From the NCBI GenBank assembly GCA_963978905.1, contig OZ022258.1, positions 37,199,282 through 37,263,281 of the forward strand: DNA of 64,000 bases. The letters run 5' to 3'. The notes under the pieces were generated by a model. It did not search any database. It saw only the letters and a list, made by a program, of their open reading frames with translations, and was not told where the DNA came from. Position 1 is the stretch's first letter. Each line of letters begins with the position of its first letter. A program made the translations under genes and the position numbers. Below are positions 17,225 to 53,443 of the stretch, one piece after another. The stretch is from Trichostrongylus colubriformis. Its lineage: Eukaryota; Nematoda; Chromadorea; Rhabditida; Trichostrongylidae.

Positions 17225-17551
17225 TATTAGGTTCTACCAAAAGTATTGTAGGATTTTTTTCGATCATCACTTTTTATTATTATTTCTTCCAACGAGCAAC
17301 AATTAGGCAACAACGTATTCACCAATGTTCTCGACAGTATCTGCCACCTCATAGGTAGATCGTAGATTCCCTCCTCCCAGAACTCTGGGTTCTGAGAGTC
17401 GAAGAAGTTAGCGATCGCCTTTGCAAGCAAGTCATGATCAACGAATTTTCTATTAGCCAGGAAGGATTCAAGAGGATGGGCAAGGCATTGTTCATAGTTC
17501 GCGATTCAGACGATCGCGTGATCGCGTGTATCGCGCGATCCAGGCGATCAG

Positions 17552-18858
17552 GGGCCGTATGCTATCCTCTCCCGGCCGGGGAGACGTCCCCGGCCGGGTG
17601 AGATCCCCGGCCGGGGACGCTTCCCGACCTGCCGTATGCTATGCTGCCGGGAGCTCCTCGGGGAGGAAGAGACGCAGAGTTGCATTGGCGCGTACTTTCA
17701 AAAGACCTTTTTTGTAACCGTGTGTCAGGCAAGTGATAATGGAGCACATGATTGGACACTGTTCAACCATTAAAACCACAGCAATTTCAGAATAAACGAA
17801 ACAACTATTTTGTCTGAAACTTCATACGATGTGGTATTTGAAGATGCTGATCACGCATAGGATAGTATCTACAAATACCTGAACGTTTCGGCGCGACAGT
17901 AATTTTCACTAAGTTATAAGTAATTTTAACTTAATTCAACCGAACAATGTAGCACTAATTTGGTGGTGAACGACATAAACGCAGAAAAGAACGACATGTT
18001 CTCAAAGATAGTACTGAATATGCTTGTATTTTGCATTCTTTTATCAAATTCAATGACGCCAAGTAGTGTGAGCGTCAGAAATGAGTGTTTATTCCGTGAT
18101 CAGTACCCCAACAGTGCTGTCGCAGTGAGGGGGGGGGCATCCTACTACTGGACCCTATTTTTATCAAAGCTAAGAAGGAGAAAGGAGCCCTTTCCTTACT
18201 TTCAAGGCTTAGGCAAAAATACACGCTTGAATGAGCAGGATGACCCCACAAAAATCCTAAAGTATTCAGGTGTGAAGCTTTTTGTGAGAGACCCCCTCCG
18301 CCACTGCTATAGCACCCCCAACCACCTCATCTGCAACTTTTGGGGTTGTAATGGTTGAAAAATAATCCAAAACAACACAAAGTTCAAGTGACCACAAAGC
18401 AAAAACATACACGAAAATTTTGCAATCAGAATAAAAACATTGGTCCCTAAAACTTTGCCAGTGAACACCACCAAATCGTACGTTACATTTAAAAAACAAA
18501 AGATGTACAAAGTGCGCGAATTTCGAGGTTGTTGACTAACAGTTGACTAACAGCACTCCCTCGGACAAGTGCAGGACCTAAAGTTGAAGTTAGAACCAGA
18601 AGGCGAGCGCTGTGCTCCAAAAATACTGTTATACAGCAGTTTTCCTCTGATCACTTTCGAAAATAGGGTGCGCTGGCGCAAATGCTTCGCTCCGCGGTCA
18701 CGAGATTACTGTATCCCCGACGCTTCCCGACCCCTTGCCGGTCGGGGACGCATCCCCGAGATTTGGTGGGCGGAGCCTCTTCCCGACGGCTGGTTGGGGA
18801 GGCATAGCATACGCCGTCGGGGACCCATCCCCGGCCGGGAGAGGATAGCATACGGCCC
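17552..18858. mobile_element. 1307-bp TIR element present only in the left arm
   Basis: The ends GGGCCGTATGCTATCCTCTC (and complement) form inverted repeats of at least 29 bp. CAG at 17549-17551 and 18859-18861 is a 3-bp duplication; the right arm has the empty site with a single CAG. The first and last 200 bp carry repeated TCCCCGGCCGGGGA palindromes and further GCATACGGC-like motifs. A 132-codon frame (17960-18358) has no recognised domain. A superfamily cannot be named: the ends do not start CACTA and the duplication is not TWA. Confidence 0.8.
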
Positions 18859-19232
18859 CAGGCGCATCAAATCCGCAATGCGTAACCACGCGGCGCGGCT
18901 GTATTGCCTGTTTTTCGAAAGTGTTGTTTCTTCGTTTGCGTTTATGTTTGTTTGTTCCGCTCAATGCATCGCTTTATGTGCCTTCATTGTTAATTTCGGA
19001 TCTTATGTTGAGATAGGCCACATTCGAAAACACATGTCATGTCAAAACACGTCTGATGATGTGGCATGACACCGCCACGTTTGCAAAGCTCGCTAGGCAA
19101 AGTCAGTCCGTCGCTTGTATGTTTCAGGGTGGTTACCCATTCTGTGCGTTGTTTATTCCTTTATTCTGTTCTTATTCTAATCTTCTTTTATTTTGTTCTT
19201 ATTCTGATCTCTCCTCTTTGACGTCATCCACT

Positions 19233-20784
19233 TGTGGGGGAGCGGTGTGGTATGTGAGAATGAAGAGAGTGAGGATGATAGGAAGAAGAGAGGATGGATA
19301 GTGATTGTGGAGTGCATAAAAGGGGTTGTGTCGGTCTAATAAATCATTCCTCTCCCTGTGTGTTCGTCGCATCGCAACTGGCGATCAGGATGATCCGGCG
19401 CGGGCGAGCAGGGCAAGGTACTGCCAAAGAAGAGAAGATGGCAGTTCTCTGGAACGCAATGGAACTTACCGGAGAGAGGCGGTGAGGACTTCCGGCAGCA
19501 GCCGAGAGAAGTCGGCCGCCCGTGGCATCAGGGTCGATAGAAATGAGGAATGCCATGATAAGGAAGGGAGTGATAGCAGCGCGGTCAATGTGGCCGGTGG
19601 AGTAGACCGGTCGCCGGTCGAACCACCGGTAATGTTGGAGATGAAAGTGAATGGGAAGAAGATCCCATTCGAGTTGGATACGGGCGCGTCACTCTCTATC
19701 ATAGATGAGAAGACGTGGTATAGATTAGGCCGGCCGCAGTTAAGTAAAGCGGAGGTAGCGGCCACGGCCTTCGATAATAAGCGGATTGAGTTTCAAGGGA
19801 AGGTTCCAATCCACGTTGAGTTCGCCGGAAAGGAGGCGAAGGTCGATGTACATGTTTATAAGGAGGCGAGTCACTCCTTATGTGGAAGAGACATGATCAG
19901 GAAGCTTAAAATAGATTGTGGACCACATTACGGGAAGGTTCACGAGGTAGAACGGTTGTCCCAAGTAGAAATCAAAAGAGAAATAGTGCGTATACTGGGC
20001 AAAAACAAAAATTATCACCGTGAAGCCGATAAAAGAAGGGATAAAAGAAGGGTGGAGGAGTGTGGTTCGTCAGTTATGTTCGCGGTGCTGGCAGCAGCAG
20101 CAGCAGGGGGGGGGGGGGGGCGGGACAAGCCCCGCTCTACAACCCCCCCCCTGCATCGTCGTCCAGTCCCCCCCTGCCGTCCAACTGGGGACGCCAAGCT
20201 GGGGAGGGGGAGTCCCGGTGGTGGCCGCAATGGCCATGCAGCCGGGGGCTCCCTCCGCTCCACAATCGATAGGACGAAGACGCCGCCGCCCGCAGCGCGG
20301 TAAAGCGCTGTGGGCGGCAGTGCGGAACATTCGGCGGGATATGAAGAGATTCCGCCTCCGCACAAGAAGCCGCACGAGAAGCCGCACAAGAAGCCGCGCG
20401 AAAAGCCGGAGCCCACAGCGGGCCAGAGGGCCGCGAAGCCGTAGTGGGGCCCGGCGGCCCCCGTCGTCGTCCCCGGTGCACGGGGACGGCGGCAATGAGA
20501 TCTAGTCTTAAATAAAGAATTGAGTTAAGACAGTGTTGAGTCGCATAAAGAGTTAACACTTGTGGTCTGTTGTGGTAGACTGGGGTAGGGCCGCTCCCTC
20601 AGCGACTTGGAGTGACCGAATGGTCACTAGGGGGAGGTGTAGGGGAGCGGTGTGGTATGTGAGAATGAAGAGAGTGAGGATGATAGGAAGAAGAGAGGAT
20701 GGATAGTGATTGTGGAGTGCATAAAAGGGGTTGTGTCGGTTTAATAAATCATTCCTCTCCCTGTGTGTTCGTCGCATCGCAACT
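19233..20784 (+). mobile_element. Short RT-less LTR retrotransposon, left copy
   Basis: Two 147-bp LTRs (19233-19379 and 20638-20784) start TGTRGGGGAGCGGTGTGG and end CGCATCGCAACT. They are flanked by the 5-bp duplication CCACT (19228-19232, 20785-20789). A TGGCGATCAGG primer-binding-like site overlaps the end of the 5' LTR, and a purine tract AGGGGGAGG precedes the 3' LTR. Each LTR holds a TATA-like ATAAAAGG and an AATAAA. At 1552 bp there is no room for reverse transcriptase or integrase; only a protease-bearing frame is present. Confidence 0.88.
19326..20303 (+). pseudogene. Retropepsin-bearing ORF, frameshifted left copy
   Basis: Codes for the same protease region as the right copy (ELDTGAS active-site motif at residues 116-122, CGRDMIRKLKI as the second conserved block). 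A run of 15 G at 20106-20120, longer than in the right arm, shifts the frame, so this product ends at 325 residues with a different tail. The Arg/Ser-rich tail is readable only in another frame (to 20505). Confidence 0.75.
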
Positions 20785-21774
20785 CCACTGTCATTCTTCA
20801 TTTCTTCTGGTAACATTGCCTACATTCAAGCCCCTCGGGCGTGCGTTCATTTTTGTATTTGCTTGCTCCCGCAAATTTGTCGAGGGTGAGTTCTTTGTGG
20901 ATTCTTAGTTTCGCGCATTTCTTATGTTGTTCATTTAGCAAGCTTTTGCATCTCGGGGTTCTTCGCGAATTGAGCGGTTGATCTGATGTGAGTAAATTAC
21001 GTTCAATTTTTCTACTTTTTCTTGAGCTAAATATTCAAGCTGCACTTTGAAGTTGATGTCCAATTCCACTACTTTCTGTGTCGCTGATTCGCACGCAGAT
21101 TGGTCACCCTGAGATTCTACGATACTGCATCTTTGCGTGCCAAATGTGATCTCAGAAAACCGCGAAGTTGGACATCGAGATGAGGTCGCGGATGGGCCCT
21201 AGAATATCTTGCAGTCTCTTGCAATTTGAACCAATTCTAAGAACATAACCCCGGCCTATCTCTTTTCCATTATCTGACTGCTATGAAGAGTGTCTGAATG
21301 GGATATTTTTGACTACTGATGATGCTATAAGGATTATTTTGGCGCTAATGGCACAAGCTCTAAATAGAAAGGTATAACATGAAAATAATTGTGCTTGAGC
21401 ATTAACATTGCTAGTTGTTTCTTGATGAGCAAGGATTCTGACCCTTTTTAAGATGAGAATACACGTGCTGAACCCGCTTGAATGCTTTAACGCTTTCTAG
21501 TTGCTGTGCTGGTAGATTTCCACCTATATTTGTAACAAGATCACCATGAAGCGTAAGCCGTCAAGCGGGTCTGCCTGCAACGGGAAAATATTTCCTCCAT
21601 GAATCGTTGTTGTGTATTCGTTGACAATTGTGATCCTCCGGTAGGGTCGGAGAGCAGATAGTCAGCGGAAATTTCGAACCGCATTGACAGAGTGACATGC
21701 AACAGTCTGGAAATGCGTAGTCACGTAAGTTATAAGAATATAAGAGATGCAATAAGCTTTTGCGTTCAGATAAA

Positions 21775-22561
21775 ATGGCATGGGATCTCTTCCGTGTTCA
21801 TCTTATTGAACTGGTGGAAATGGAGCCAAGTATTTGGGATTTGGGTAGTGATGAGTACAGACTAAACTACAGGAAAAGGAACGCATGGGCACGAATTTTA
21901 AAAGCTATGAATGAGCAAGGACACAGTTGTGGCTGTGCGTTCATGAGTGCATTACAATTTTCAGCAGTTATAGATTCAGATTTCAATGTTACGTGAGTGA
22001 ATTACGGGCTATTTGGAAGAACCTGAGAGACATGTGGAAAAGAAAAAAGCAACATCAACAGGCTCTGAAGCTGTAAAAGCATGGATGTACGGGGACATGC
22101 TCTCGTTTCTAGAAAAGGCCGAATTTCATGGGTGTGCTGATGTTTTATTATCTTACTGTTGTTTTATCTTGTTTATCTTCTTTTATTATCTTATTTTATC
22201 TCTTATTTATTACTTTACTTAGTGGAATGTTTGCAGAACTACCATAAGCAATATTGACGCCGACGGGAATTTCATCAGTGTTCCTGAAGAATTTAGTTCT
22301 AGTCCATCCCCTCCATGTAACTCGCCGAAAAGGCCTTCATTAGATTTTGAGAGTCCTACTATGAGAAAGCGACCGAGATCGAGGGAAGGTATGTGATCCC
22401 TGATAAGAATTAGGGTGGACAGCAGCGGCTGAGCAAGTTTTTTTTTTCAAGATCCTTTGCAAATGATAAAGACAGCTACAGAAGCTGTGAAGAACCACGC
22501 GGAGCGCTTGAGTACTAAAGAAAAAGGAAAAATGGATTTGAAGACAGATATTCCGCATTCG
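21775..22561 (+). pseudogene. Harbinger MADF/Myb-like accessory protein, left copy
   Basis: From the ATG at 21775 (acceptor GCGTTCAG 5 bases upstream) the frame gives a MADF DNA-binding domain: HLIELVEMEPSIWDLGSDEY, then RKRNAWARILKAM. The domain continues in another frame (ELRAIWKNLRDMWKRKKQ, about 22002-22055) and returns to a third stretch (EAVKAWMYGDMLSFLEK). Two frame changes therefore interrupt it unless unusual splicing is used. Later exons give a Ser/Pro-rich basic segment (KRPRSRE, a possible nuclear signal) and a helical tail. Such proteins bring Harbinger transposase to the nucleus and to the ends. The right copy is equivalent. Confidence 0.65.
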
Positions 22562-22642
22562 GTGAGACATTTTATAGTTAATGTGCATAGTTGAGGATGA
22601 TCGGATGTTGAGTGTGTGATGTGAGATGTGAGTGTGAGATGT

Positions 22643-24162
22643 GCACAGTTGAGGATGATGTTCTGCAAAATGGCGAACCCTCGGCAAAGAATACCGAATG
22701 TGGATTCGACCATTCGTCGAGCACTAAATTTACGATGTTGAATCGGTGAAGGGCCCTGAATAGTTGATTATTCCCGCTATGCTTGGCGTTAAATCTTCGT
22801 TTACTCGGCGTATCCGCGGCTGCTTGCGAATATGGCCGCACATAGCGGTACCCCTGGCCAAACTCACTGTCCACCAAATGTGGTATTGGACCCCGCGTCG
22901 GTGGAAAAATGTCGTCTCTTCTGTGGAAGAAACGCTGAAAAGAGGAGTGCAGATGAGCTATTTTACAGCTCTTCTACTTACTTTGATGTTGGAGTTTCTT
23001 AAAACTCCTGTATCTCACACTCGCCCTGGTGCTACTAAATCGAACAGGAGGATGCGATAGTAGCAGTCAACCAGGGCAAGTAGGATTATAGAAAAAGCCC
23101 CTTTATAGTTGAAGTACGTGCTGCCGGAATGGGCGGGCTTCTGCGATGCTGATATTTTTCCATAGACACGATACTTGTAGACGAGAAAGCGCTTAAAGTC
23201 TTACCCTGATGTTTGTGTATTTCCCATCTAAGAATCCGACAGTACGAGGATATACGTACCTTTCTTGGGTACGGATTGCAGTCTCTTTGAGATCCCTTTG
23301 CGTAAACGCAGGAAATGCGTCCGCGAAGAGCGCTAATATATTGATAATTATTGAAACGACGTGATGAATGCCCACATTAGATTCCCACCATTTTATAGCG
23401 TCCGCCACTTCATACACAATCGTACTTATTGTGGATTTGCCACAATGTACTTCTTCGGCCAAAGCGCTGAACGTGTAGCAGTGGTCCACATACCTTTAAC
23501 CAATAACATTAAACTCTCATTCGTTGGTCTCCCATATATCATCGTCTACCTTAGAAATATAAATAGTCGGTGGCGACCGCTAATCGACGAAGCATGGTTT
23601 ACGGGATGAAGCAGCGCCCTAGCTTTCCTCCCATACACTCGCTCGAACTCAGTCGGGGATAATCTGATATAAAGTTAAAGGATAAAGTTTTTGGCGTCAA
23701 TCAATCCCTTCTGTGGGATGCGCCGCACATTGTAGTTCCATTCAGAATCGTGATGGCTGGTGAATGTGATGTGGCCTGTACAATGACTTGCGGTGGCCAG
23801 CCGATGTACAAGTCAGTGCTTTTATCCTCCCAGACGAGTATGGTACCAATTTACCGACCCCGGAGGGATGGAAGGCTTGGTTGCTTGGGCGGGCGTTGAT
23901 GCGGGATTTGATCCCCGCACCATGAGAGTGGAGTGCGCGCCACCTGTCACTACACCACCTCCGCCCCTAATCTGATATAGTGTGTGAAATTGCTTGTTCC
24001 ACACACAGCCAGATATTGGTCGAAAGTTCGCAGCTGAGAGTCTAGAAAGGGCACATGCTCCATGTGCACATACTCCCTGCTTCGTTCGAGTTCGCGGTAG
24101 CGACCATAGGCTTCTTCCAGTTGCTGCACAGCTTGGAGCAAATCAGCTGCTTCACAAGCCAT
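22643..24162 (-). pseudogene. Harbinger DDE transposase, left copy, SINE-interrupted
   Basis: Mirror of the right-arm gene (40831-42350): exon 1 at 23968-24162 continues at 23550-23659 beyond the SINE, then 23205-23493, 23021-23140, about 22776-22934, and a last piece near 22643-22724. It carries the same catalytic positions and the same breaks. See the right copy for details. Confidence 0.75.
23672..23967 (-). mobile_element. tRNA-derived SINE, left-arm copy
   Basis: Mirror of 41026-41321. The 12-bp target duplication TAATCTGATATA flanks it (23660-23671 and 23968-23979). It interrupts transposase exon 1. Confidence 0.88.
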
Positions 24163-24937
24163 ACTCTAAGCTGTAGTTTATATTGAAAAGCTGCACTCGA
24201 TTAATGCCCTTATTTACAGGTGCCACAGATATTGCGGTTCGATGTTGAGATCAGTTCTTTTTGTGATACAATTTCGATTGTTTTGTTTCAATTGTTAATT
24301 TTTGATCTGAACGAGAAGAGCTTCACTGTGTTACGTGCCTCCAATTTGCGTTTCGTGCGTGTTTCATGCCTCCAATTGTACTGTGGAATTTTTTTCAAGA
24401 AATGAGGATTTGGCTTTCGTCATCTCCTTTTTTGGAGCCACCACGCACTGTTATTCCATGCACTATTGAACATTTCAATGTATGCTTTCCATTTACCACT
24501 AAATTACATTTGCATCGAGGTCTTTTCGTGAGTAGGTGCTTTAGTTTTGTAAGAGATTTCTTAAAGGCATATACAGAGATCTCACAAGTGAATAGAGTGA
24601 AAAAGCAGCAGAATAGGATGAATCTTCAATAGGATAACGAAACACCGATCGTGATTCAGTTACTAAGAAAAGAACTGGCTTCTTATAAGATGCACCAGCA
24701 AAAATTAAGCGAACTACTTACTGCAATCGGGAGGTGCACCTATAACTCGAGAAGTTTCTACTATCACCTGAATCGCTCCATTGCCTGATTTGCTTAATCG
24801 ATATGTATCTTTTCCCTTCCGAGTGAATCGGGCGATCCACGCGATCGCGCGATCGCCTGAATCACTCGATCAATATGTATCTTTTTCCTTCCGTCTGAAT
24901 CGTGCGATCGCCTGACTCGCGAACTATGAACAATGCT

Positions 24938-26574
24938 TCACCCCTGAGAACCAATGGTAATACATGTCATGATTAAAGCGACCACCTCCTTTGCAGGCAG
25001 TACCACCACTATTGAAGTACTTATCGCTGGCATTGCACAAAATTGCTTTAGAAAAGGGTTTTGGTCCGGTTACTTTGTGATTTTCCAATAACTGGACCCG
25101 TTTTATTTCGGAAGCCATTATCCTTGCTGCACTGTTTTTTTACCTTTACTGCTTTCTGTGGCATAAGCTGTTTCCGAAACGAATTCATTTTTTGAAAGCT
25201 TAGCTTGGCGCTGTAGCTCCTGGCCGTCGCGCTGTACACCTCACAACACATTCATTACTTCTGAAAGTACTCTCACAAAAGTGTGAGGCGATTTGTACGA
25301 AAATCACCCACCATCCAGAGATGCAGGTTCTTTTTCTTATCGCTTTCGCCATAAAGTTCAAGCCGAAGATAATCGTGTAAACTGTGGTGGCATATTGTGA
25401 AATGTTAGTTGATACCAGTGAAATACATGTTGATACCTCCCTCTGCTCAGTAGGTAAGGATTTGTCAAGCGGTCAGTACTTTCTATATAGTTGGAACATA
25501 TGCATGCATATTAGGTAGGAAACAAGTTTCTGCTCTTTAGGATCCAATGAAAAAATCTGATATTTTACAACGATAATGTTGGGGAGCTTTCCAATTTTGA
25601 GCTCTCTGTAAAAGCCCAGTCCTCCTCTAACCGTTTCACTACACCTTGATGCCAATTCGTGAGATATTTTTTGATCTAGGTCGGTGGAATGTTGTCTTTT
25701 TTGGAAGTGTCCATTATTTACGACGACAACTCATATACTTGAGATAGCAGCGGGTTAATAAAGTGATAACTGAATCGGGCATGTGAAAGCACCCTTGACT
25801 AATCTTGTGAAACGAGGTTATCCAGTGTCATTATAGGAGGACGGCTTAGCTTTGGTAGCGGAGTTTTCTCAGGTAGCTGATCTCATTCCCGATGAAAGTG
25901 GATTACAAGAATTATTTTCTGAATTTATTAATTTTTTGAGACATGTTTTTGCGTCTGGGACTGTTCTCACACAACCAAGCTCAGTTTATGGTTTTTTCGG
26001 AAAATGCTCTTCTGCAACTTTTACCCTGAGCCTGCGATGTGTCGTCATGTCTGTACTATTCTCTCCTTGCGATGCTGTTTGATACTGCCCGAAAGGACAT
26101 TGCAAAAGTTTCTGCTAAAGGGTAGCTTAAGTAGCTGAAAATGTTGTCTGGCAATTCTTACAGAATTTTCAATGATAGTTTGTCCCATGATAGAAGATTC
26201 GATGTATAACAGTGCAATGATAGGTAACTAGTAAAACAGTGCAAGTTAGCCGTAACTTTGTCCACGGCCTAACTCTGATTCATGTGTTTGCAAAATTTAC
26301 AAATTCCTTGTAAAAGCTGTAAAGTACCCACATATGAGTGCTTCAATGTGAAAATGGGCAAGAACTGGTAATTAGTAAGACAGCAACGATGTGAAGTTTA
26401 TTATCACAAGGAGGCACAAAATCAACAGAATCCACACGTCTTCGGACACACCTTCATCACAGTGGCTTGAGAAAGCTTCATTCGGTCGCAAAAACCTTGA
26501 GCCTTGAGCGAAAGGCAGCTGGAAGAATACTTCAGCTACTTCGAAGTCAATAAATTAATGAAATTCAAAGTTTC
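24938..26574. other. Cargo DNA between left Harbinger and astacin gene
   Basis: Mirror of 38419-40055. It holds the astacin polyadenylation signal (26397-26402 on -) and several exon-like frames on - that I cannot assign, including one at 24924-25118 that runs into the Harbinger end. See the right-arm entry. Confidence 0.5.
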
Positions 26575-34131: not shown

Positions 34132-34579
34132 AATGCTTGCACTTCCTTTGAAGAAGACCTCCAGCGTCCGATATGGCATGACAATGTTCCACTGTTTTAA
34201 CAGCTGTTGTAAATGTACGAGAAATATCAGAAGGCAGTGGGATCAGATGACTATAAAATGGAAGTGAGAGCGATGCAGCATAGCACTCCTCATTCAACCG
34301 TTCCATGTCAGCTATTGGTATAATTCACATAGTCTTCGGGCATATCACTACCTTTCTGAAAATGCCTTTTCTCCTACACGGATGATACACGTCAACCGCC
34401 TAAATTTATGCGAGGTTTGGACTGAATGGTAAAAAATATGTCGATTGAGCGTTGACCGAATAAGCATACCATCCTAAAACTGCAAAATTGTTATTAGACA
34501 TCAGCAGGTTATTATGTGAGAATGGACTGCCGCGATAGATTCCTTCGAACGGGTCCTGCTCAATGCTGCAGAGATGAAA

Positions 34580-34592
34580 TTTCATATTACAG
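34580..34592 (+). promoter_or_regulatory. Probable trans-splice acceptor of the astacin gene
   Basis: TTTCATATTACAG ends one base before the ATG at 34594, leaving almost no outron-derived leader. The same site is at 30401-30413 on - in the left copy. The position suggests spliced-leader addition; not proven from sequence alone. Confidence 0.45.
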
Positions 34593-34593
34593 A

Positions 34594-37500
34594 ATGAGGC
34601 TTATATTCCTCATTTTACTCTTGTTTGTTGCCACAGTTGGATTAAGCGAAGGAGGTCTCTTGAGTAAAGTGGTTTCTGGTGCAAAGAACGTCGGTGCAAG
34701 AATCAAGAATGCAACGATTGAGGGATATGGAAAGGTGCTTTTCTTTCTTCAATGGTTTCTGCTTCATATCATTCCTCGATTAGAATTACACTTTTGGGTT
34801 CACTGTGTGCCCAGATATGTTCCTTTCCCGCTTATTTGAATCTATGAGTACATATTGCATACCCTCTCTCTAATAATTTCAGCTCACCAATACTACGGTA
34901 TTCCTGAAAGTCCGAAGCAAGCTTAAAAACATGAAAAATAAAATAGTGAAGACGTTCAAGCAAACACCGCAGCGCTTGAAGGCACTCATGGAGAAGTTTA
35001 AGGTACTGTTCATCAGCTATTGGCCGTGCTTTCATGGCATATATCACATAAGTCATATATTAAGAACTGGTTTTCGAAGTTGAGCCATTGTGTATCGAGC
35101 GCACATGGAGATGGGATGTGAGCTGGTGCTCTAGCAGACAGTATCACAATTACTCAGTTTTACAGAACTTAAAAGCGTGGTTCTTCGATAGGGACCATAT
35201 CAATCCGCAAGGCGACACCATTGCCGAAATCAATAATAACACTGGCATCACCGATGATATGTATCAGGGTGACATGATTCTAACAGAGTACGTACAACAA
35301 ACTGCACAGATCAAATTTTCATGGAATGTTCTTGTAGAGAACAAATTGATGAGATCGACCATGATACAGAGGAACAGCTTGCTGAAATGAATTCCTCATC
35401 ACTTTCAAAGCCGCGTAGGAAACGTCAAGCGCTTGTAGACGAAAAGTATCCAGCAAATATATGGAGTGAGGGGGTGAACTACTACTTCCATCCTTCCGCC
35501 AGTAAGTGCTTTCATGTTTGATAGAGTGCATAGAAGGTAACAATACTCACCAAATTGCAGGTATGAAGGTGCGTAATGTCTTCACGAAAGCAGCAAAACT
35601 GTGGGAAAAGGATACCTGCGTTAAATTTGTGCAAAACCAAAGAGGTAATAATAATTACGGGTAATTAAGGTTATATAAAATGGGTCGTTTTTCCAGACAT
35701 TTGACCGATGAAATGATTACTGTGGTCGTGCATATGCAGATTACTCAGTTTATCAATACTGTGTAGCAGAAGCGGGTCCATGATGACTTCAAATTGCCTT
35801 TCGGTTTCAGCAGATGCTCGAATAATGGTGGCCGGGGGAGCAGGCTGTAGTAGCAACGTGGGAAGGATCGGTCGCGAACAAAAAATTTCGCTAGGAGGCG
35901 GTTGTGAGTCGGTAGGCATCGCTTCGCACGAGATTGGCCACTCTCTTGGACTTTTCCACACCCACTCTCGAACTGATCGTGACGACTTCATTGATGTTGC
36001 CATAGATCTTGTCACGGTGAGTGCTTAGCAAAAAATTCACGTCTGTTTAAACTCCGTGCAGTAAGAGCATTGAGACTTCACTCGTTAGGTTTGATGGAAT
36101 TACATGTAAGGGTCAAAGCGAGTTGGACTACTGTGCAAAAGATCAATGTACCCTGTGATAGATAAGCAACAAAAATGATCAAACCTTAGGATGAGATCAT
36201 CAAGCTGTTCTCGTCGTGAAATGTTTTCACAGCTTTGCAACGCTGTCGTATTGATCTAATGTACGCGCATTTTTGAAAAAAAAATCAGGTTCAGGTAAAA
36301 CACGTAGAAATCCCTCTCGTAGAAGAGATCACCTACAGGATATCTGCCAATAAGCTAAGGCCAATGAAAAGCATCAAATACCCCCATAATCGTGAGTTTC
36401 GCTACCACCGTTTCCGTGCCCATGGTCTCTTTCCACATTTGAAGTACTCCTCCGTATTGAACACCAACGTTATCGCGAAAAATTCCGATGATGATGAAGT
36501 CTCGCAGTGCTATGGAAAAAAGGGCGCTTTCAACAAAATCCATTGGGTTGAATTTTGAATTAACTCATTCTTGAGCAACATGTTTTTATGTGGTCTGGTT
36601 TTTGGCAGAATCTGTTTCTGGGAGTATATTTGCCTGAAGAGTCTGATTTGATTGAAAGCGTAATAATCAAGCTAGATTTCAAAATGATTGAGCAGTGAAC
36701 ATTCAGTAATATGAAAATATGCATGCACCGTGAGCAATAAATACCAATCTTTTTTTTCATATCAATTTCATCAATGATTTCAACAAAGAGACGCCAGATA
36801 GAACCGACAATTACCATGTGAAGTACGACTATGGTAGTATTATGCACTATGGTGGAACAGTGTATGTTTGCTTTCATAATTAGTCAAATCAGTGTTCCAT
36901 TTTCAGTAACCAGTTATTACATTTATACTAGTGTCGTAATTATCTCAGTTTAATAATCATCAAGGCTCGGGACAGGAATGGCTACAAAGTTGTTCACATA
37001 TACTAATGTGCAATTTATTAACAGTGGAGCAAAATTCATTGCAAAAGGCCGACCAACAATTGTACCGAAAGATGAAATGTATCAATCGACTCTGGGATCT
37101 CACATCATTTCGTTCACGGACCTCTCCATTGTCAATGAACACTACCATTGCAAAGGTTTGACGTACTTCATTTGGAGGACTCCATAAAAATTGCTGGTCT
37201 GCCGAAACTACACACATTTCTCGCGAGACACGAAACATGTTATTATTCAGTGATTCATCTCATTCGGCATAACCTGCTCACATAGTTCAATTGCGCTGAT
37301 ACAATAGATCCGAATACATGCAACATGGAATACTATAACAGTTATCGTCTCCCTTAATTACATGATTTAGAAAAATGCGTTCCTGATAAATCAGCTAAGT
37401 GCCAGATGGGCGGATTTCCTCATCCTCAAGACTGTCAAAGGTGCATCTGTCCTGGAGGTTACGGTGGAAATCTTTGCAACGAAAGAGTGAGCCAGACTAA

Positions 37501-38418
37501 AACGAGAATGTGTAATAACCAGATTGAAAGGAGCATTGTTTTCAGCCATCAGGATGTGGCAGAACGATTCAAGCCTCCCCTGCCTGGGTGAGATTCGAGG
37601 ATGTAATTGGCCGTGGTGGTGATCAGGTCGATGACTTTGATATGTGCAACTATTGGATTGAAGTATGTCTTATACTCTATTAAATGCATGCAATTTCAAT
37701 TCATATACATTTTGGCATGCATTTGATTGATGAGCAACGTCAGGAACATTCGAAGTAATCTCTCACAGGAATCTCTTCAGTTACCCCATAATTAGTGGCA
37801 AAATGTTTACAGGCTATCGACCGCATTTGATTTTTACAGTCCCCAAAAGGAACCGAAATTGAAGTGAGACTAATAGACTACGAAATGGGTGTTTCTATTG
37901 ACGGATGTGTCTATGCTGGTGTGGAGATTAAGACTAACAAAGATCAAACGCTTACTGGCTACAGGTACTGTTATAGTGAATTAGTGAACTATAGTGAGTA
38001 TATAGTGGTACTACTTATATTCTAGAGCGGAGGTTTTAAGATATCCTAGAGACTTGATTGAAGGTTCTGCTCACCTAAAGCTGCTGGAACAACACTTCGT
38101 TCATATTCAAACCGTGTTCCAATAATAACCTATAACAGATTTGACACCTCGAAGACTGTCCTCGAATACCGACACGGTATGCTTTGGATGTTTTCGCTAT
38201 ATTTATAATGTGTTTGATTCCACCAAATGTGTTCAGTTCCTGCAACAAGTGATAGATCGAAGCCAAGCCCTGACGTTGCTCCTGAAGGAGCTGCAACTGT
38301 AGAACCTAATCCATCTTCTGTGACAAAAGCACCAGCCACAGCGGTACCGAATGTGAAACCTTCTCCTTCTCCCGTGATAACAGGAACTGGCTTCAGATGC
38401 GTGGACAGTTCTAAGTAA
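34594..38418 (+). CDS. Astacin metalloprotease (astacin-EGF-CUB), right copy
   Basis: Thirteen exons: 34594-34734, 34883-35002, 35166-35287, 35338-35501, 35561-35644, 35811-36016, 36761-36861, 37025-37155, 37371-37486, 37546-37662, 37840-37964, 38064-38176, 38237-38418. All phases agree, giving 573 residues. Order: signal peptide (MRLIFLILLLFVATVGLSEG), pro-region, furin-like RRKR (154-157), astacin domain with zinc ligands in HEIGHSLGLFHTHSRTDRD (from 250) and Met-turn SIMHY (305-309), EGF-like domain (about 359-395), CUB (about 399-513), Pro/Ser/Thr-rich tail. It should be a secreted zinc endopeptidase like nematode NAS proteins, used in cuticle or tissue remodelling. AATAAA at 38591-38596. 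Exon 7 lacks an AG acceptor (TTTTTTTCAT), so full-length splicing is doubtful. The start at 34594 is preferred over upstream in-frame codons because it opens a signal peptide. Confidence 0.82.
36290..36558 (+). other. Orphan ORF inside astacin intron 6
   Basis: After an AATCAG acceptor a frame of nearly 90 codons stays open (KHVEIPLVEEITYRISANK near its start, IKYPHNREFRYHRFRAHG in the middle, KIHWVEF at the end). Composition looks coding, but it has no astacin feature and I do not recognise a family. A second short cysteine-bearing frame (RFDGITCKGQSELDYCAKD) lies at about 36090-36160. They could be exons of a nested or captured gene, or an alternative 3' end. Confidence 0.35.
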
Positions 38419-40055
38419 GAAACTTTGAATTTCATTAATTTATTGACTTCGAAGTAGCTGAAGTATTCTTCCAGCTGCCTTTCGCTCAAGGCTCAAGGTT
38501 TTTGCGACCGAATGAAGCTTTCTCAAGCCACTGTGATGAAGGTGTGTCCGAAGACGTGTGGATTCTGTTGATTTTGTGCCTCCTTGTGATAATAAACTTC
38601 ACATCGTTGCTGTCTTACTAATTACCAGTTCTTGCCCATTTTCACATTGAAGCACTCATATGTGGGTACTTTACAGCTTTTACAAGGAATTTGTAAATTT
38701 TGCAAACACATGAATCAGAGTTAGGCCGTGGACAAAGTTACGGCTAACTTGCACTGTTTTACTAGTTACCTATCATTGCACTGTTATACATCGAATCTTC
38801 TATCATGGGACAAACTATCATTGAAAATTCTGTAAGAATTGCCAGACAACATTTTCAGCTACTTAAGCTACCCTTTAGCAGAAACTTTTGCAATGTCCTT
38901 TCGGGCAGTATCAAACAGCATCGCAAGGAGAGAATAGTACAGACATGACGACACATCGCAGGCTCAGGGTAAAAGTTGCAGAAGAGCATTTTCCGAAAAA
39001 ACCATAAACTGAGCTTGGTTGTGTGAGAACAGTCCCAGACGCAAAAACATGTCTCAAAAAATTAATAAATTCAGAAAATAATTCTTGTAATCCACTTCCA
39101 TCGGGAATGAGATCAGCTACCTGAGAAAACTCCGCTACCAAAGCTAAGCCGTCCTCCTATAATGACACTGGATAACCTCGTTTCACAAGATTAGTCAAGG
39201 GTGCTTTCACATGCCCGATTCAGTTATCACTTTATTAACCCGCTGCTATCTCAAGTATATGAGTTGTCGTCGTAAATAATGGACACTTCCAAAAAAGACA
39301 ACATTCCACCGACCTAGATCAAAAAATATCTCACGAATTGGCATCAAGGTGTAGTGAAACGGTTAGAGGAGGACTGGGCTTTTACAGAGAGCTCAAAATT
39401 GGAAAGCTCCCCAACATTATCGTTGTAAAATATCAGATTTTTTCATTGGATCCTAAAGAGCAGAAACTTGTTTCCTACCTAATATGCATGCATATGTTCC
39501 AACTATATAGAAAGTACTGACCGCTTGACAAATCCTTACCTACTGAGCAGAGGGAGGTATCAACATGTATTTCACTGGTATCAACTAACATTTCACAATA
39601 TGCCACCACAGTTTACACGATTATCTTCGGCTTGAACTTTATGGCGAAAGCGATAAGAAAAAGAACCTGCATCTCTGGATGGTGGGTGATTTTCGTACAA
39701 ATCGCCTCACACTTTTGTGAGAGTACTTTCAGAAGTAATGAATGTGTTGTGAGGTGTACAGCGCGACGGCCAGGAGCTACAGCGCCAAGCTAAGCTTTCA
39801 AAAAATGAATTCGTTTCGGAAACAGCTTATGCCACAGAAAGCAGTAAAGGTAAAAAAACAGTGCAGCAAGGATAATGGCTTCCGAAATAAAACGGGTCCA
39901 ATTATTGGAAAATCACAAAGTAACCGGACCAAAACCCTTTTCTAAAGCAATTTTGTGCAATGCCAGCGATAAGTACTTCAATAGTGGTGGTACTGCCTGC
40001 AAAGGAGGTGGTCGCTTTAATCATGACATGTATTACCATTGGTTCTCAGGGGTGA
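38419..40055 (+). other. Cargo DNA between astacin gene and right Harbinger
   Basis: Past the astacin polyadenylation signal there are exon-like frames on +, none assigned to a family. They are about 39290-39440 (KYLTNWHQGVVKRLEEDWAF, one in-frame TAG upstream), 39612-39715 (LRLELYGESDKKKNLHLWM after a CCACAG acceptor), 39740-39850, and 39875-40069 (NSGGTACKGGGRFNHDMYYH). The last frame runs 14 bases into the Harbinger end, so an original gene may have been cut there. They may represent one broken host gene downstream of the astacin. Confidence 0.4.
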
Positions 40056-40830
40056 AGCATTGTTCATAGTTCGCGAGTCAGGCGATCGCACGATTCAGAC
40101 GGAAGGAAAAAGATACATATTGATCGAGTGATTCAGGCGATCGCGCGATCGCGTGGATCGCCCGATTCACTCGGAAGGGAAAAGATACATATCGATTAAG
40201 CAAATCAGGCAATGGAGCGATTCAGGTGATAGTAGAAACTTCTCGAGTTATAGGTGCACCTCCCGATTGCAGTAAGTAGTTCGCTTAATTTTTGCTGGTG
40301 CATCTTATAAGAAGCCAGTTCTTTTCTTAGTAACTGAATCACGATCGGTGTTTCGTTATCCTATTGAAGATTCATCCTATTCTGCTGCTTTTTCACTCTA
40401 TTCACTTGTGAGATCTCTGTATATGCCTTTAAGAAATCTCTTACAAAACTAAAGCACCTACTCACGAAAAGACCTCGATGCAAATGTAATTTAGTGGTAA
40501 ATGGAAAGCATACATTGAAATGTTCAATAGTGCATGGAATAACAGTGCGTGGTGGCTCCAAAAAAGGAGATGACGAAAGCCAAATCCTCATTTCTTGAAA
40601 AAAATTCCACAGTACAATTGGAGGCATGAAACACGCACGAAACGCAAATTGGAGGCACGTAACACAGTGAAGCTCTTCTCGTTCAGATCAAAAATTAACA
40701 ATTGAAACAAAACAATCGAAATTGTATCACAAAAAGAACTGATCTCAACATCGAACCGCAATATCTGTGGCACCTGTAAATAAGGGCATTAATCGAGTGC
40801 AGCTTTTCAATATAAACTACAGCTTAGAGT

Positions 40831-42350
40831 ATGGCTTGTGAAGCAGCTGATTTGCTCCAAGCTGTGCAGCAACTGGAAGAAGCCTATGGTCGCTACCGCG
40901 AACTCGAACGAAGCAGGGAGTATGTGCACATGGAGCATGTGCCCTTTCTAGACTCTCAGCTGCGAACTTTCGACCAATATCTGGCTGTGTGTGGAACAAG
41001 CAATTTCACACACTATATCAGATTAGGGGCGGAGGTGGTGTAGTGACAGGTGGCGCGCACTCCACTCTCATGGTGCGGGGATCAAATCCCGCATCAACGC
41101 CCGCCCAAGCAACCAAGCCTTCCATCCCTCCGGGGTCGGTAGATTGGTACCATACTCGTCTGGGAGGATAAAAGCACTGACTTGTACATCGGCTGGCCAC
41201 CGCAAGTCATTGTACAGGCCACATCACATTCACCAGCCATCACGATTCTGAATGGAACTACAATGTGCGGCGCATCCCACAGAAGGGATTGATTGACGCC
41301 AAAAACTTTATCCTTTAACTTTATATCAGATTATCCCCGACTGAGTTCGAGCGAGTGTATGGGAGGAAAGCTAGGGCGCTGCTTCATCCCGTAAACCATG
41401 CTTCGTCGATTAGCGGTCGCCACCGACTATTTATATTTCTAAGGTAGACGATGATATATGGGAGACCAACGAATGAGAGTTTAATGTTATTGGTTAAAGG
41501 TATGTGGACCACTGCTACACGTTCAGCGCTTTGGCCGAAGAAGTACATTGTGGCAAATCCACAATAAGTACGATTGTGTATGAAGTGGCGGACGCTATAA
41601 AATGGTGGGAATCTAATGTGGGCATTCATCACGTCGTTTCAATAATTATCAATATATTAGCGCTCTTCGCGGACGCATTTCCTGCGTTTACGCAAAGGGA
41701 TCTCAAAGAGACTGCAATCCGTACCCAAGAAAGGTACGTATATCCTCGTACTGTCGGATTCTTAGATGGGAAATACACAAACATCAGGGTAAGACTTTAA
41801 GCGCTTTCTCGTCTACAAGTATCGTGTCTATGGAAAAATATCAGCATCGCAGAAGCCCGCCCATTCCGGCAGCACGTACTTCAACTATAAAGGGGCTTTT
41901 TCTATAATCCTACTTGCCCTGGTTGACTGCTACTATCGCATCCTCCTGTTCGATTTAGTAGCACCAGGGCGAGTGTGAGATACAGGAGTTTTAAGAAACT
42001 CCAACATCAAAGTAAGTAGAAGAGCTGTAAAATAGCTCATCTGCACTCCTCTTTTCAGCGTTTCTTCCACAGAAGAGACGACATTTTTCCACCGACGCGG
42101 GGTCCAATACCACATTTGGTGGACAGTGAGTTTGGCCAGGGGTACCGCTATGTGCGGCCATATTCGCAAGCAGCCGCGGATACGCCGAGTAAACGAAGAT
42201 TTAACGCCAAGCATAGCGGGAATAATCAACTATTCAGGGCCCTTCACCGATTCAACATCGTAAATTTAGTGCTCGACGAATGGTCGAATCCACATTCGGT
42301 ATTCTTTGCCGAGGGTTCGCCATTTTGCAGAACATCATCCTCAACTGTGC
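40831..42350 (+). pseudogene. Harbinger DDE transposase, right copy, SINE-interrupted
   Basis: Exon 1 (40831-41025, continuing at 41334-41443 after a SINE) has a coiled-coil start (LLQAVQQLEEAYGRYREL) and FDQYLAVCGTSNFTHYIRL. Exon 2 (41500-41788) has the helix-turn-helix CGKSTISTIVYEVADAI and the first catalytic Asp in GFLDGKYTNIR. Exon 3 (41853-41972) has HSGSTYFNYKGAFSIILLAL. Exon 4 (42059 to about 42217) has the second Asp in PHLVDSEFGQGYRY, then RRFNAKHS. The last piece (from 42270) has the Glu in ARRMVESTFGIL. This is the DDE_Tnp_4 order of PIF/Harbinger transposases. The SINE, plus a non-GT donor before the last piece (AG|CGGGAA), make an active product unlikely. The same defects are in the left copy. 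Confidence 0.8.
41026..41321 (+). mobile_element. tRNA-derived SINE, right-arm copy
   Basis: A 296-bp element with a tRNA-like head: box A-like TGGTGTAGTGACAGGTGG, then box B-like GGGGATCAAATCCCGC. Body and tail end in GGGATTGATTGACGCC and a short T/A tail. The 12-bp duplication TATATCAGATTA flanks it (41014-41025 and 41322-41333). Removing element and one duplication restores the transposase frame (HYIRL followed by SPTEFERVYGR). Family members: 6278-7047, 14562-14822, 23672-23967, 54398-54668. Confidence 0.9.
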
Positions 42351-42431
42351 ACATCTCACACTCACATCTCACATCACACACTCAACATCCGATCATCCTC
42401 AACTATGCACATTAACTATAAAATGTCTCAC

Positions 42432-43217
42432 CGAATGCGGAATATCTGTCTTCAAATCCATTTTTCCTTTTTCTTTAGTACTCAAGCGCTCCGCGTGGTT
42501 CTTCACAGCTTCTGTAGCTGTCTTTATCATTTGCAAAGGATCTTGAAAAAAAAACTTGCTCAGCCGCTGCTGTCCACCCTAATTCTTATCAGGGATCACA
42601 TACCTTCCCTCGATCTCGGTCGCTTTCTCATAGTAGGACTCTCAAAATCTAATGAAGGCCTTTTCGGCGAGTTACATGGAGGGGATGGACTAGAACTAAA
42701 TTCTTCAGGAACACTGATGAAATTCCCGTCGGCGTCAATATTGCTTATGGTAGTTCTGCAAACATTCCACTAAGTAAAGTAATAAATAAGAGATAAAATA
42801 AGATAATAAAAGAAGATAAACAAGATAAAACAACAGTAAGATAATAAAACATCAGCACACCCATGAAATTCGGCCTTTTCTAGAAACGAGAGCATGTCCC
42901 CGTACATCCATGCTTTTACAGCTTCAGAGCCTGTTGATGTTGCTTTTTTCTTTTCCACATGTCTCTCAGGTTCTTCCAAATAGCCCGTAATTCACTCACG
43001 TAACATTGAAATCTGAATCTATAACTGCTGAAAATTGTAATGCACTCATAAACGCACAGCCACAACTGTGTCCTTGCTCATTCATAGCTTTTAAAATTCG
43101 TGCCCATGCGTTCCTTTTCCTGTAGTTTAGTCTGTACTCATCACTACCCAAATCCCAAATACTTGGCTCCATTTCCACCAGTTCAATAAGATGAACACGG
43201 AAGAGATCCCATGCCAT
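42432..43217 (-). pseudogene. Harbinger MADF/Myb-like accessory protein, right copy
   Basis: Same content as 21775-22561: MADF domain start at 43217, the same two frame changes, then Ser/Pro-rich basic and helical parts. The defects are shared, so they arose before the arms were duplicated. The A-run near 42545 is one base different from the left arm. Confidence 0.65.
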
Positions 43218-44205
43218 TTTATCTGAACGCAAAAGCTTATTGCATCTCTTATATTCTTATAACTTATGTGACTATGCATTTCCAGACTGTTGCATGTCAC
43301 TCTGTCAATGCGGTTCGAAATTTCCGCTGACTATCTGCTCTCCGACCCTACCGGAGGATCACAATTGTCAACGAATACACAACAACGATTCATGGAGGAA
43401 ATATTTTCCCGTTGCAGGCAGACCCGCTTGACGGCTTACGCTTCATGGTGATCTTGTTACAAATATAGGTGGAAATCTACCAGCACAGCAACTAGAAAGC
43501 GTTAAAGCATTCAAGCGGGTTCAGCACGTGTATTCTCATCTTAAAAAGGGTCAGAATCCTTGCTCATCAAGAAACAACTAGCAATGTTAATGCTCAAGCA
43601 CAATTATTTTCATGTTATACCTTTCTATTTAGAGCTTGTGCCATTAGCGCCAAAATAATCCTTATAGCATCATCAGTAGTCAAAAATATCCCATTCAGAC
43701 ACTCTTCATAGCAGTCAGATAATGGAAAAGAGATAGGCCGGGGTTATGTTCTTAGAATTGGTTCAAATTGCAAGAGACTGCAAGATATTCTAGGGCCCAT
43801 CCGCGACCTCATCTCGATGTCCAACTTCGCGGTTTTCTGAGATCACATTTGGCACGCAAAGATGCAGTATCGTAGAATCTCAGGGTGACCAATCTGCGTG
43901 AATCAGCGACACAGAAAGTAGTGGAATTGGACATCAACTTCAAAGTGCAGCTTGAATATTTAGCTCAAGAAAAAGTAGAAAAATTGAACGTAATTTACTC
44001 ACATCAGATCAACCGCTCAATTCGCGAAGAACCCCGAGATGCAAAAGCTTGCTAAATGAACAACATAAGAAATGCGCGAAACTAAGAATCCACAAAGAAC
44101 TCACCCTCGACAAATTTGCGGGAGCAAGCAAATACAAAAATGAACGCACGCCCGAGGGGCTTGAATGTAGGCAATGTTACGAGAAGAAATGAAGAATGAC
44201 AGTGG

Positions 44206-45747
44206 AGTTGCGATGCGACGAACACACAGGGAGAGGAATGATTTATTAAACCGACACAACCCCTTTTATGCACTCCACAATCACTATCCATCCTCTCTTC
44301 TTCCTATCATCCTCACTCTCTTCATTCTCACATACCACACCGCTCCCCTACACCTCCCCCTAGTGACCATTCGGTCACTCCAAGTCGCTGAGGGAGCGGC
44401 CCTACCCCAGTCTACCACAACAGACCACAAGTGTTAACTCTTTATGCGACTCAACACTGTCTTAACTCAATTCTTTATTTAAGACTAGATCTCATTGCCG
44501 CCGTCCCCGTGCACCGGGGACGACGACGGGGGCCGCCGGGCCCCACTACGGCTTCGCGGCCCTCTGGCCCGCTGTGGGCTCCGGCTTTTCGCGCGGCTTC
44601 TTGTGCGGCTTCTCGTGCGGCTTCTTGTGCGGAGGCGGAATCTCTTCACATCCCGCCGAATGTTCCGCACTGCCGCCCACAGCGCTTTACCGCGCTGCGG
44701 GCGGCGGCGTCTTCGTCCTATCGATTGTGGAGCGGAGGAAGCCCCCGGCTGCATGGCCATTGCGGCCACCACCGGGACTCCCCCTCCCCAGCTTGGCGTC
44801 CCCAGTTGGACGGCAGGGGGGGACTGGACGACGATGCAGGGGGGGTTGTAGAGCGGGGCTTGTCCCGCCCCCCCTGCTGCTGCTGCTGCCAGCACCGCGA
44901 ACATAACTGACGAACCACACTCCTCCACCCTTCTTTTATCCCTTCTTTTATCGGCTTCACGGTGATAATTTTTGTTTTTGCCCAGTATACGCACTATTTC
45001 TCTTTTGATTTCTACTTGGGACAACCGTTCTACCTCGTGAACCTTCCCGTAATGTGGTCCACAATCTATTTTAAGCTTCCTGATCATGTCTCTTCCACAT
45101 AAGGAGTGACTCGCCTCCTTATAAACATGTACATCGACCTTCGCCTCCTTTCCGGCGAACTCAACGTGGATTGGAACCTTCCCTTGAAACTCAATCCGCT
45201 TATTATCGAAGGCCGTGGCCGCTACCTCCGCTTTACTTAACTGCGGCCGGCCTAATCTATACCACGTCTTCTCATCTATGATAGAGAGTGACGCGCCCGT
45301 ATCCAACTCGAATGGGATCTTCTTCCCATTCACTTTCATCTCCAACATTACCGGTGGTTCGACCGGCGACCGGTCTACTCCACCGGCCACATTGACCGCG
45401 CTGCTATCACTCCCTTCCTTATCATGGCATTCCTCATTTCTATCGACCCTGATGCCACGGGCGGCCGACTTCTCTCGGCTGCTGCCGGAAGTCCTCACCG
45501 CCTCTCTCCGGTAAGTTCCATTGCGTTCCAGAGAACTGCCATCTTCTCTTCTTTGGCAGTACCTTGCCCTGCTCGCCCGCGCCGGATCATCCTGATCGCC
45601 AGTTGCGATGCGACGAACACACAGGGAGAGGAATGATTTATTAGACCGACACAACCCCTTTTATGCACTCCACAATCACTATCCATCCTCTCTTCTTCCT
45701 ATCATCCTCACTCTCTTCATTCTCACATACCACACCGCTCCCCTACA
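44206..45747 (-). mobile_element. Short RT-less LTR retrotransposon, right copy
   Basis: LTRs at 45601-45747 (5') and 44206-44352 (3') with AGTGG/CCACT duplications at 45748-45752 and 44201-44205, mirroring the left copy. It is shorter because the internal G and C homopolymers are contracted. Confidence 0.88.
44485..45654 (-). CDS. Retropepsin plus Arg/Ser-rich tail protein of the LTR element
   Basis: A 389-codon frame with no stop. Residues about 103-200 form a retropepsin-like aspartic protease: LEMKVNGKKIPFELDTGAS with the catalytic Asp at 118, and CGRDMIRKLKID as the second conserved block; dimerisation would be required. Residues about 200-260 are charged. The tail is Ala/Pro-rich and then strongly basic with repeated RTRSRTRSR, like RNA-binding SR segments. 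No zinc knuckle, reverse transcriptase, RNase H or integrase is present. The first ATG lies inside the 5' LTR, so the true start may be further in. Other elements would have to supply replication enzymes. Function is inferred from motifs only. Confidence 0.7.
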   Translation of the reverse strand: MCRSNKSFLSLCVRRIATGDQDDPARASRARYCQRREDGSSLERNGTYRREAVRTSGSSREKSAARGIRVDRNEECHDKEGSDSSAVNVAGGVDRSPVEPPVMLEMKVNGKKIPFELDTGASLSIIDEKTWYRLGRPQLSKAEVAATAFDNKRIEFQGKVPIHVEFAGKEAKVDVHVYKEASHSLCGRDMIRKLKIDCGPHYGKVHEVERLSQVEIKREIVRILGKNKNYHREADKRRDKRRVEECGSSVMFAVLAAAAAGGAGQAPLYNPPCIVVQSPPAVQLGTPSWGGGVPVVAAMAMQPGASSAPQSIGRRRRRPQRGKALWAAVRNIRRDVKRFRLRTRSRTRSRTRSRAKSRSPQRARGPRSRSGARRPPSSSPVHGDGGNEI

Positions 45748-46817
45748 AGTGGATGACGTCAAAGAGGAAGAGATCAGAATAAGAACAAAATAAAAGAAGA
45801 TTAGAATAAGAACAGAATAAAGGAATAAACAACGCACAGAATGGGTAACCACCCTGAAACATACAAGCGACGGACTGACTTTGCCTAGCGAGCTTTGCAA
45901 ACGTGGCGGCGTCATGCCACATCATCAGACGTGTTTTGACATGACATGTGTTTTCGAATGTGGCCTATCTCAACATAAGATCCGAAATAAACAATGAAGG
46001 CACATAAAGCGATGCATTGAGCGGAACAAACAAACATAAACGCAAACGAAGAAACAACACTTTCGAAAAACAGGCAATACAGCTGCGCCGCGTGGTTACG
46101 CGTTGCGGTTTTGATGCGTCTGATCGCCCGGATCGCGCGATCGACGCGATCACTCGATCGTCTGAATCGCGAACTATGAACAATGCCTAAGGTGATAGTC
46201 AGAAGAGGTGATGTCTAAAGAGTAGGGCAGGTGGGGCAGGCATTCCAGCCGAGCTCGTGTACCTTGGCCTGGAAACTTTTTGCGATGTGGTGGCGGACGT
46301 CGTCATGAAGGAGGGTGATCGCGGACCTTCCCCGGCGCATTTCTCGAACAGCGACGGCTAGCTGCTGGAGCTGGAGGGTGTATACGGTAGCGGTGACTGT
46401 CTTGCCTTGTATCAGCTTTTCGTGGAAAAACATCCTTCCGCGTCCCGGAAGCAGCAAAGTTACGAGCGTGGCTTGCCTTCCATGTCGTTCTCGCCGTTGC
46501 TGAAGCTGACGGACCAGCGACGCACGGTCCCTTAGATCACACATCCCTTGCCCAATGCAGTGCTGATGGAGTTGCAAGATTACGTCGCTTTGGGGCCGCG
46601 AAACCACTCACAGTAGATGACACCGCATGTTTAGTGGGTATAGACTACAGGCTTTGTAGCTTTCTCCACGGAATCTAGCAGGTCAATATATATTTTATTA
46701 GAAAGCTCAGAGAACTTTCTATCATACATACTCCTGAACCGCCCAGATCTGTCTCGAAGTAAACACGAGTTATGGAGGTTTTTGGAAAAATCCTACAAGA
46801 CTTTTGGTACAACCTAA

Positions 46818-53323: not shown

Positions 53324-53443
53324 GTGCTGCTGATGTGCGTCCCAAGCCGGCGCGTCCCCGAGGGTGCTGCTGATGTGCGTCCCAAGCCGGCGCGTCCCCG
53401 AGGGTGCTGCTGATGTGCGTCCCAAGCCGGCGCGTCCCCGAGG
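53324..53443 (+). repeat. Three perfect 40-bp tandem repeats
   Basis: The unit begins GTGCTGCTGATGTGCGTCCC and ends CCGGCGCGTCCCCGAGG. Three copies start at 53324, 53364 and 53404 without differences. It opens a GC-rich island that ends near 53620. Confidence 0.92.

Follow-up and report, generated by a model that had tools for sequence, protein, structure and literature searches.

Two inverted Harbinger copies bracket a palindromic pair of astacin genes that has moved as a unit in Trichostrongylus colubriformis

The window analysed here is a stretch of 64,000 nucleotides of the Trichostrongylus colubriformis genome (C5:37199282-37263281), and the genome searched was one 331-Mb assembly of 52 contigs. 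The Rfam SL1 model had one match, under its cut-off (41.9 bits, E 7.9e-4; best 50 of 71,400 candidates), which on its own would make a nematode source likely. The window contains a 28.7-kb palindrome, W, in which two inverted copies of a DNA transposon assigned to PIF/Harbinger enclose two astacin-type metalloprotease genes. The outer end of each Harbinger copy is called the A-end and the inner end the B-end. Self-comparison placed the arms of W at 17484-30861 and 34132-46187, with a 3.27-kb spacer between them; the inverted repeat itself pairs 18859-30861 with 34132-46122, and the outer pieces 17484-17551 and 46120-46187 pair separately. Compared base by base, the 12.0 kb of the inverted repeat show 21 substitutions and a few short gaps, and the BLAST inverted block 18859-30914 has 99.56% identity. 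The outermost 69 bp of the arms match at 94% (4 mismatches). Diverged inverted homology runs about 50 bp beyond the inner junction (score 49 vs a best score of 33 in 2000 shuffles). The features are as follows (TIR, terminal inverted repeat; LTR, long terminal repeat; SINE, short interspersed nuclear element).

17228..17483, no strand: host mariner, left part, ending in the target copy CAA (uninterrupted in the mariner copy L002; outer limit by eye)
17484..17551, + strand: left outer Harbinger end (A-end), with a perfect 24-bp terminus, supported by family copies
17484..24937, + strand: left Harbinger copy, A-end outside and B-end inside
17552..18858, no strand: nested 1.3-kb TIR element inside the left outer Harbinger end, left arm only, with a CAG/CAG duplication
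19233..20784, + strand: LTR element with 147-bp LTRs and a retropepsin-like frame; right-arm counterpart at 44206-45747; 5-bp duplication CCACT by eye
21740..22100, + strand: remnant of a MADF/Myb-like second Harbinger gene (Pfam PF10545, 2.2e-6)
23672..23967, no strand: SINE-like dispersed repeat of about 300 bp, in both arms of W
24914..24937, - strand: inner Harbinger end (B-end), 2 mismatches, followed by TCA
24938..30861, gene on - strand: left cargo, astacin-type metalloprotease gene (Pfam Astacin, 2.8e-24; one exon-sized frame)
30862..34131, no strand: spacer, of which about the first 50 bp at each side are diverged inverted homologues
34132..40055, gene on + strand: right cargo, second astacin gene
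40056..46187, - strand: right Harbinger copy, B-end inside (40056) and A-end outside (46187)
41498..42546, + strand: Harbinger transposase remnant, frames interrupted
46188..46827, no strand: host mariner, right part, starting with the target copy TAA (from the L002 alignment; outer limit by eye)

The 24-bp terminal sequence of the Harbinger copies occurs four times in the window, without mismatches at 17484 (+) and 46187 (-) and with 2 mismatches at 24937 (-) and 40056 (+). No match turned up in any of 100 shuffled sequences, even when as many as 3 mismatches were tolerated. An earlier note, written from the letters of this DNA, had claimed that a 28.7-kb palindrome is bounded exactly by inverted Harbinger ends and that the inner ends abut cargo. 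Both points hold, as the perfect termini stand at 17484 and 46187 and the B-ends at 24937 and 40056 adjoin the astacin cargo. The flanking triplets of W are CAA on the left and TAA on the right. When the two flanks were joined they gave one alignment (883 columns, 83%) to L002, a mariner copy elsewhere in the genome that is uninterrupted and has a single TAA at the site matching the insertion of W. Hence the whole palindrome sits within one mariner, next to a 3-bp duplication of which one copy has changed by one base. The note had likewise placed these triplets within a single mariner and proposed a genome search for the empty one; L002 is a related copy that is intact at the site. Both Harbinger copies share the inner neighbour TCACCCC...; the inner-end triplet, TCA, differs from the outer flanks CAA and TAA, which suggests that the original Harbinger insertion took place elsewhere than in the window.

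At C5:18940537 and 18984335, separated by 43.8 kb, lie two more full-length A-ends that face outward. They delimit a second composite, B, about 18 Mb from the window on the same chromosome, which consists of Harbinger, astacin, spacer, astacin and Harbinger in the same order and orientation as W. The main blocks of B and W are approximately 91-96% identical and the spacer blocks 91-93%. The two arms of B match each other at 99.7% across 17.8 kb and at 98.6-98.9% in the outer 2.4 kb; in both arms the last ~25 bases of the inner B-end have been replaced by a 6.3-kb block. B is flanked by a perfect TAA/TAA duplication. Dispersed repeats aside, its flanks are unrelated to those of W, and the homology between W and B ends at the Harbinger terminus on both sides, beyond which only the target triplet and one or two bases are shared. 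A search with 480 bp beside the left end of B gave no second match that could represent the empty site (best 40 of 535 candidates). Because B is the same composite with its own TAA/TAA duplication and unrelated flanks, it shows directly that, on one occasion or more, the block moved as a unit. W and B thus have the properties of a composite transposon: the outer ends bound the unit, there is a single duplication, and the unit is present at two unrelated sites. The note's proposal that the outermost Harbinger ends had mobilised a 28.7-kb unit with two genes is therefore borne out by B and by the uninterrupted L002, and its suggested search for other inserts with the same outer ends is answered by B.

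The outer end was also used to recover the wider transposon family. The genome search gave 57 matches (best 40 of 59 candidates), and paired termini were present in 22 of the 32 loci examined, representing 21 distinct elements; the 32 loci include 5 parts of W or B, and some are listed twice. Identical 3-bp flanks were found at 15 of the 22 end-paired loci (11 TAA or TTA, that is TWA, 2 TCA, 1 TAT and 1 TTT), and at 7 the flanks disagree. End-paired copies in the short loci measure 1.3 kb or less, these loci covering only ~1.5 kb past the end match, so that longer copies could not pair there. One of two related Harbinger copies (L047 and L048; C5:40.25 and 40.43 Mb) is 5.3 kb long. Against Pfam, DDE_Tnp_4 (PF13359) was recognised in a piece of the B copy (E 9e-9) and in a relative on C6 (1.3e-9), and the MADF/Myb domain (PF10545) in W (2.2e-6) and B (9.4e-7); a third piece scored 0.0032 against PF10545, under the cut-off. 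The W transposase pieces that were tried gave no DDE match, their frame being interrupted. TWA target duplication belongs to the hallmarks of PIF/Harbinger in the accessible part of a published account (PMC4482050). Judged by its short family copies, TWA-type duplication, DDE_Tnp_4 and MADF/Myb-like second gene, the element belongs to PIF/Harbinger.

The transposase region has four long copies genome-wide: one pair, at 100%, belongs to W and the other, at 92%, to B. The other matches are two ~190-bp pieces at 90%, one of 70 bp at 86%, and more distant relatives whose identity is 65-75% (22 matches, 19/19 candidates scored). In the two right-arm copies read, one each in W and B, the transposase has stops and frame changes, and neither copy is autonomous. 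L047 and L048 are ~97% alike, a similarity that extends into part of the left flank, and L047 has an additional internal block of satellite-like repeats.

The cargo proved to be part of a family of its own. A search with window positions 25000-30861 gave 91 matches (best 35 of 98 candidates), with at least ten inverted astacin pairs on C5, at 18.95, 36.85, 37.22 (the window), 38.43, 38.47, 39.16, 39.34, 39.54, 46.64 and 53.86 Mb. Single cargo copies lie on C1, C3, C5, C7 and C13, a third copy lies near 53.88 Mb, and C47 has a wide-spaced pair. The arms score nearly alike against the query at, for example, 36.85, 46.64 and 18.95 Mb, and unlike at 38.43 and 39.54 Mb. Two of the related palindromes, C and D (C5:46.64 and 38.47 Mb), were read over 30 kb each. 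Both have the same core palindrome as W and no Harbinger match over these 30 kb, and they have 1.8 kb of left flank in common. Within 100 kb of the C5 pairs, scored outer-end matches were found only at W and B (best 40 of 59 candidates). The astacin palindrome is older than the composite, than W and B, and than any Harbinger involvement, because C and D are without Harbinger and because the inner edges have diverged at 9/52 to 15/51 positions, where the W arms and the B arms differ by no more than ~0.1%. At the centre of C (L050 5391-5590) there are 200 Ns with left-type spacer in both arms, which may be a renewed centre or an assembly collapse.

The astacin pieces of the cargo show nonsynonymous differences (pN) of 0.003-0.016 vs synonymous differences (pS) of 0.039-0.074, from 157 codons in three pieces that were searched apart; few differences underlie these values, and a 70/30 rule of thumb was applied to codons carrying two changes. 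These values suggest constraint on the pieces, and the astacin genes may well still be functional.

The arms are far more alike within a locus than between loci. Over 5.3-5.6 kb, the two arms differ by 0.11% in W, 0.02% in B, 0.59% in C and 0.04% in D, while arms from different loci among these four differ by 4.45-5.70%. In the arm tree the arms pair by locus, and every split has support 1.000, including W+B vs C+D. Just beyond the inner arm edge, the two sides of the same locus differ at 15/51 positions in W, 9/52 in B and 9/53 in D, and the left sides of different loci differ at 3/52 (W and B), 5/53 (W and D) and 2/52 (B and D). C is symmetrical at its inner edge, close to the N gap, and adds no test. 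Because the arms pair by locus and the left sides at the inner edge pair across loci, the palindrome must have existed before the loci split, with its arms homogenised since. We take this to show concerted evolution of the arms by gene conversion.

Arm-to-arm copying fades toward the ends of the homology. In W, the arms differ at 8/120 positions in the outer tip, at 3/339 in the stretch that follows and at 14/11,596 in the interior (tip vs interior, Fisher p 2.7e-11); the corresponding counts in B are 5/120, 2/320 and 20/9,665 (p 1.1e-5). The intermediate stretch was excluded from both sides of the test, and tip and interior counts were obtained by projection of BLAST blocks.

Insertions inside the arms follow the same pattern of sharing. 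The LTR element and the SINE-like repeat are present in both arms of W and, going by the block limits, missing at those sites from either arm of B; the uninterrupted targets of both could be read directly in the left B arm. From the LTR element, 138/155 40-mers recur in the other W arm and 0/156 25-mers in B. For the SINE-like repeat the numbers are 27/31 40-mers and 4/32 25-mers, the four words in B probably coming from other copies of this abundant repeat. The 6.3-kb block of B is not in W: 612/628 of its 40-mers are found in its other arm, and a single 25-mer matches the window. These three blocks, two in W and one in B, show that later locus-specific insertions were copied from arm to arm. 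The nested TIR element is confined to the left arm of W, with 0/128 sampled 25-mers in the right arm, and a 96% copy lies at D2182-3507, 4 kb outside the D palindrome. Over time, the copy at 17552-18858 would be expected to be copied to, or lost from, the arm pair. By eye, frames in the 6.3-kb block (L042 5032 to L043 1386; b15032-21386) resemble reverse transcriptase.

The account we favour, with a probability of about 0.8, is that of an older palindrome in which a Harbinger was mirrored by conversion, after which the block was moved by its outer A-ends and the arms have been homogenising since. A palindromic astacin pair that predated the Harbinger would have gained a PIF/Harbinger in one arm, with the A-end outward. 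Gene conversion between the arms could then have copied the element to the other arm, so that an inverted Harbinger pair bracketed the genes. Arm-to-arm copying is the simplest explanation of the mirrored pair, because three locus-specific blocks are common to both arms in the same way. A transposase would next have acted on the two outermost A-ends, moving the whole block and leaving a TAA duplication. As the internal copies examined are broken, this transposase was probably supplied in trans, and it would have worked on two ends of the A type. Since the movement, the arms of each copy have kept homogenising each other, later insertions included.

The earlier note had hinted at another origin of the palindrome, by reversed-ends transposition. 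In the rival account built on this, which also takes in sister-chromatid transposition, Harbinger would have created the palindrome in the manner of maize Ac/Ds before mobilising it. Such events do yield composite insertions and macrotransposons in maize, according to the accessible part of PMC9910405, and the cargo is indeed bracketed by two inverted Harbinger copies. The hint is not supported by the comparison with C5:46.64 and 38.47 Mb, where the astacin palindrome occurs without Harbinger; together with inner edges that have diverged at 9/52 to 15/51, against ~0.1% or less in the W and B arms, this points to a palindrome older than W and B and makes a Harbinger origin unlikely. Very unlikely, too, is that the composite was carried to one of its two loci by segmental duplication or ectopic recombination rather than by transposase. 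The gene family evidently also spreads in other ways, since a further 1.8 kb of flank, in which no transposon end is visible, is common to C and D. W and B, by contrast, are homologous only as far as the Harbinger terminus, the TAA-type duplication excepted, and lie between unrelated flanks.

That the palindrome is an assembly fold-back or a self-joined haplotype is a possibility to which we attach very little weight. The arms are long and nearly identical, and the 200-N gap at the centre of C indicates that such palindromes strain the assembly. Against this, the spacer of W is distinct, one insertion is confined to a single arm, the sequences outside are different parts of one mariner, divergence is graded, and B is a homologous copy with its own duplication. 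On the grounds of spacer, one-arm insertion, mariner parts and second copy, the fold-back was set aside. Least probable of all is a pair of independent Harbinger insertions at mirror positions in both arms that later acted together. It would equally produce an outward pair of A-ends. Yet the inner neighbour TCACCCC... is the same for both copies, hits at mirror sites are improbable, and arm-to-arm sharing of locus-specific blocks was seen three times.

Several observations weigh against the favoured account of an older, converting palindrome moved by its A-ends. The left target copy of W is CAA rather than TAA, and the left terminus of B carries one mismatch. The switch in pairing beyond the inner edge is weak on the right: W_R-B_R and W_R-D_R each differ at 11/51 positions vs 11/50 for W_R-B_L, and B_R-D_R at 7/53, with support of 0.93 for the group of right sides and 0.375 for the pair of B_R and D_R. 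At the outer tips, W and B show no left-left or right-right pairing, a pattern that fits outer ends which were alike when W and B separated, or nearly so. Inspection by eye showed neither transposon ends nor duplications where C and D end. Finally, we found no donor locus carrying a single Harbinger in just one arm, and the copying of the Harbinger between arms stays a step that we infer.

Composite transposons routinely move genes in bacteria. In the fish element Teratorn the partner of the transposon is a virus, where W and B carry a palindrome of host-type genes instead. Teratorn is piggyBac-based and, like W and B, a giant composite DNA transposon, as described in the accessible part of PMC10175614. 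From the accessible part of PMC9910405, Ac macrotransposons are known in maize, one of them 28 kb, and W and B resemble Ac/fAc macrotransposons and composite insertions in that outer ends mobilise the DNA lying between two copies and a single target duplication results. They differ in superfamily and host, in that the cargo is a palindrome older than the composite, and in that both outer ends are of the same type. With PIF/Harbinger elements and their short non-autonomous copies they share the TWA-type duplication, the DDE_Tnp_4 transposase and the Myb/SANT-like second gene. Unlike the usual members, the units of W and B are 28.7 and 43.8 kb long, are palindromic, and contain a pair of host-type genes alongside two sets of broken transposon genes.

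The inverted-repeat gene pairs of Caenorhabditis are similar in that arm identity within a genome is far above orthologue identity, for which an active mechanism was proposed; as far as the accessible part of PMC1803023 goes, they have much shorter intergenic arms than W and B, lie at corresponding sites in three species, and come with neither transposon ends nor movement. In the accessible parts of the open-access literature we found neither an animal Harbinger macrotransposon nor a mobile gene-converting palindrome described, and no animal Harbinger that carries host genes at more than one site.

W and B thereby bring together gene conversion in palindromes and capture by transposons, which have been separate subjects. 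The two composites show the movement directly, and their arms show how one insertion can turn into a bracketing pair. On this basis, transposons within any converting palindrome are predicted to occur as mirrored pairs. We suggest tentatively, and at slightly less than even odds, that converting palindromes could be composite-transposon factories, in which a mirrored transposon brackets the genes and lets the pair travel, and that this may have partly seeded the at least ten astacin pairs.

Some smaller features of the window may be added. Frames in the spacer at 30862-34131 resemble, by eye, a broken non-LTR reverse transcriptase, and part of the junction sequence recurs in the spacer, as a third copy, at ~32030-32060. 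Outside the palindrome, a perfect 40-bp tandem repeat is present in three copies at 53324-53443.

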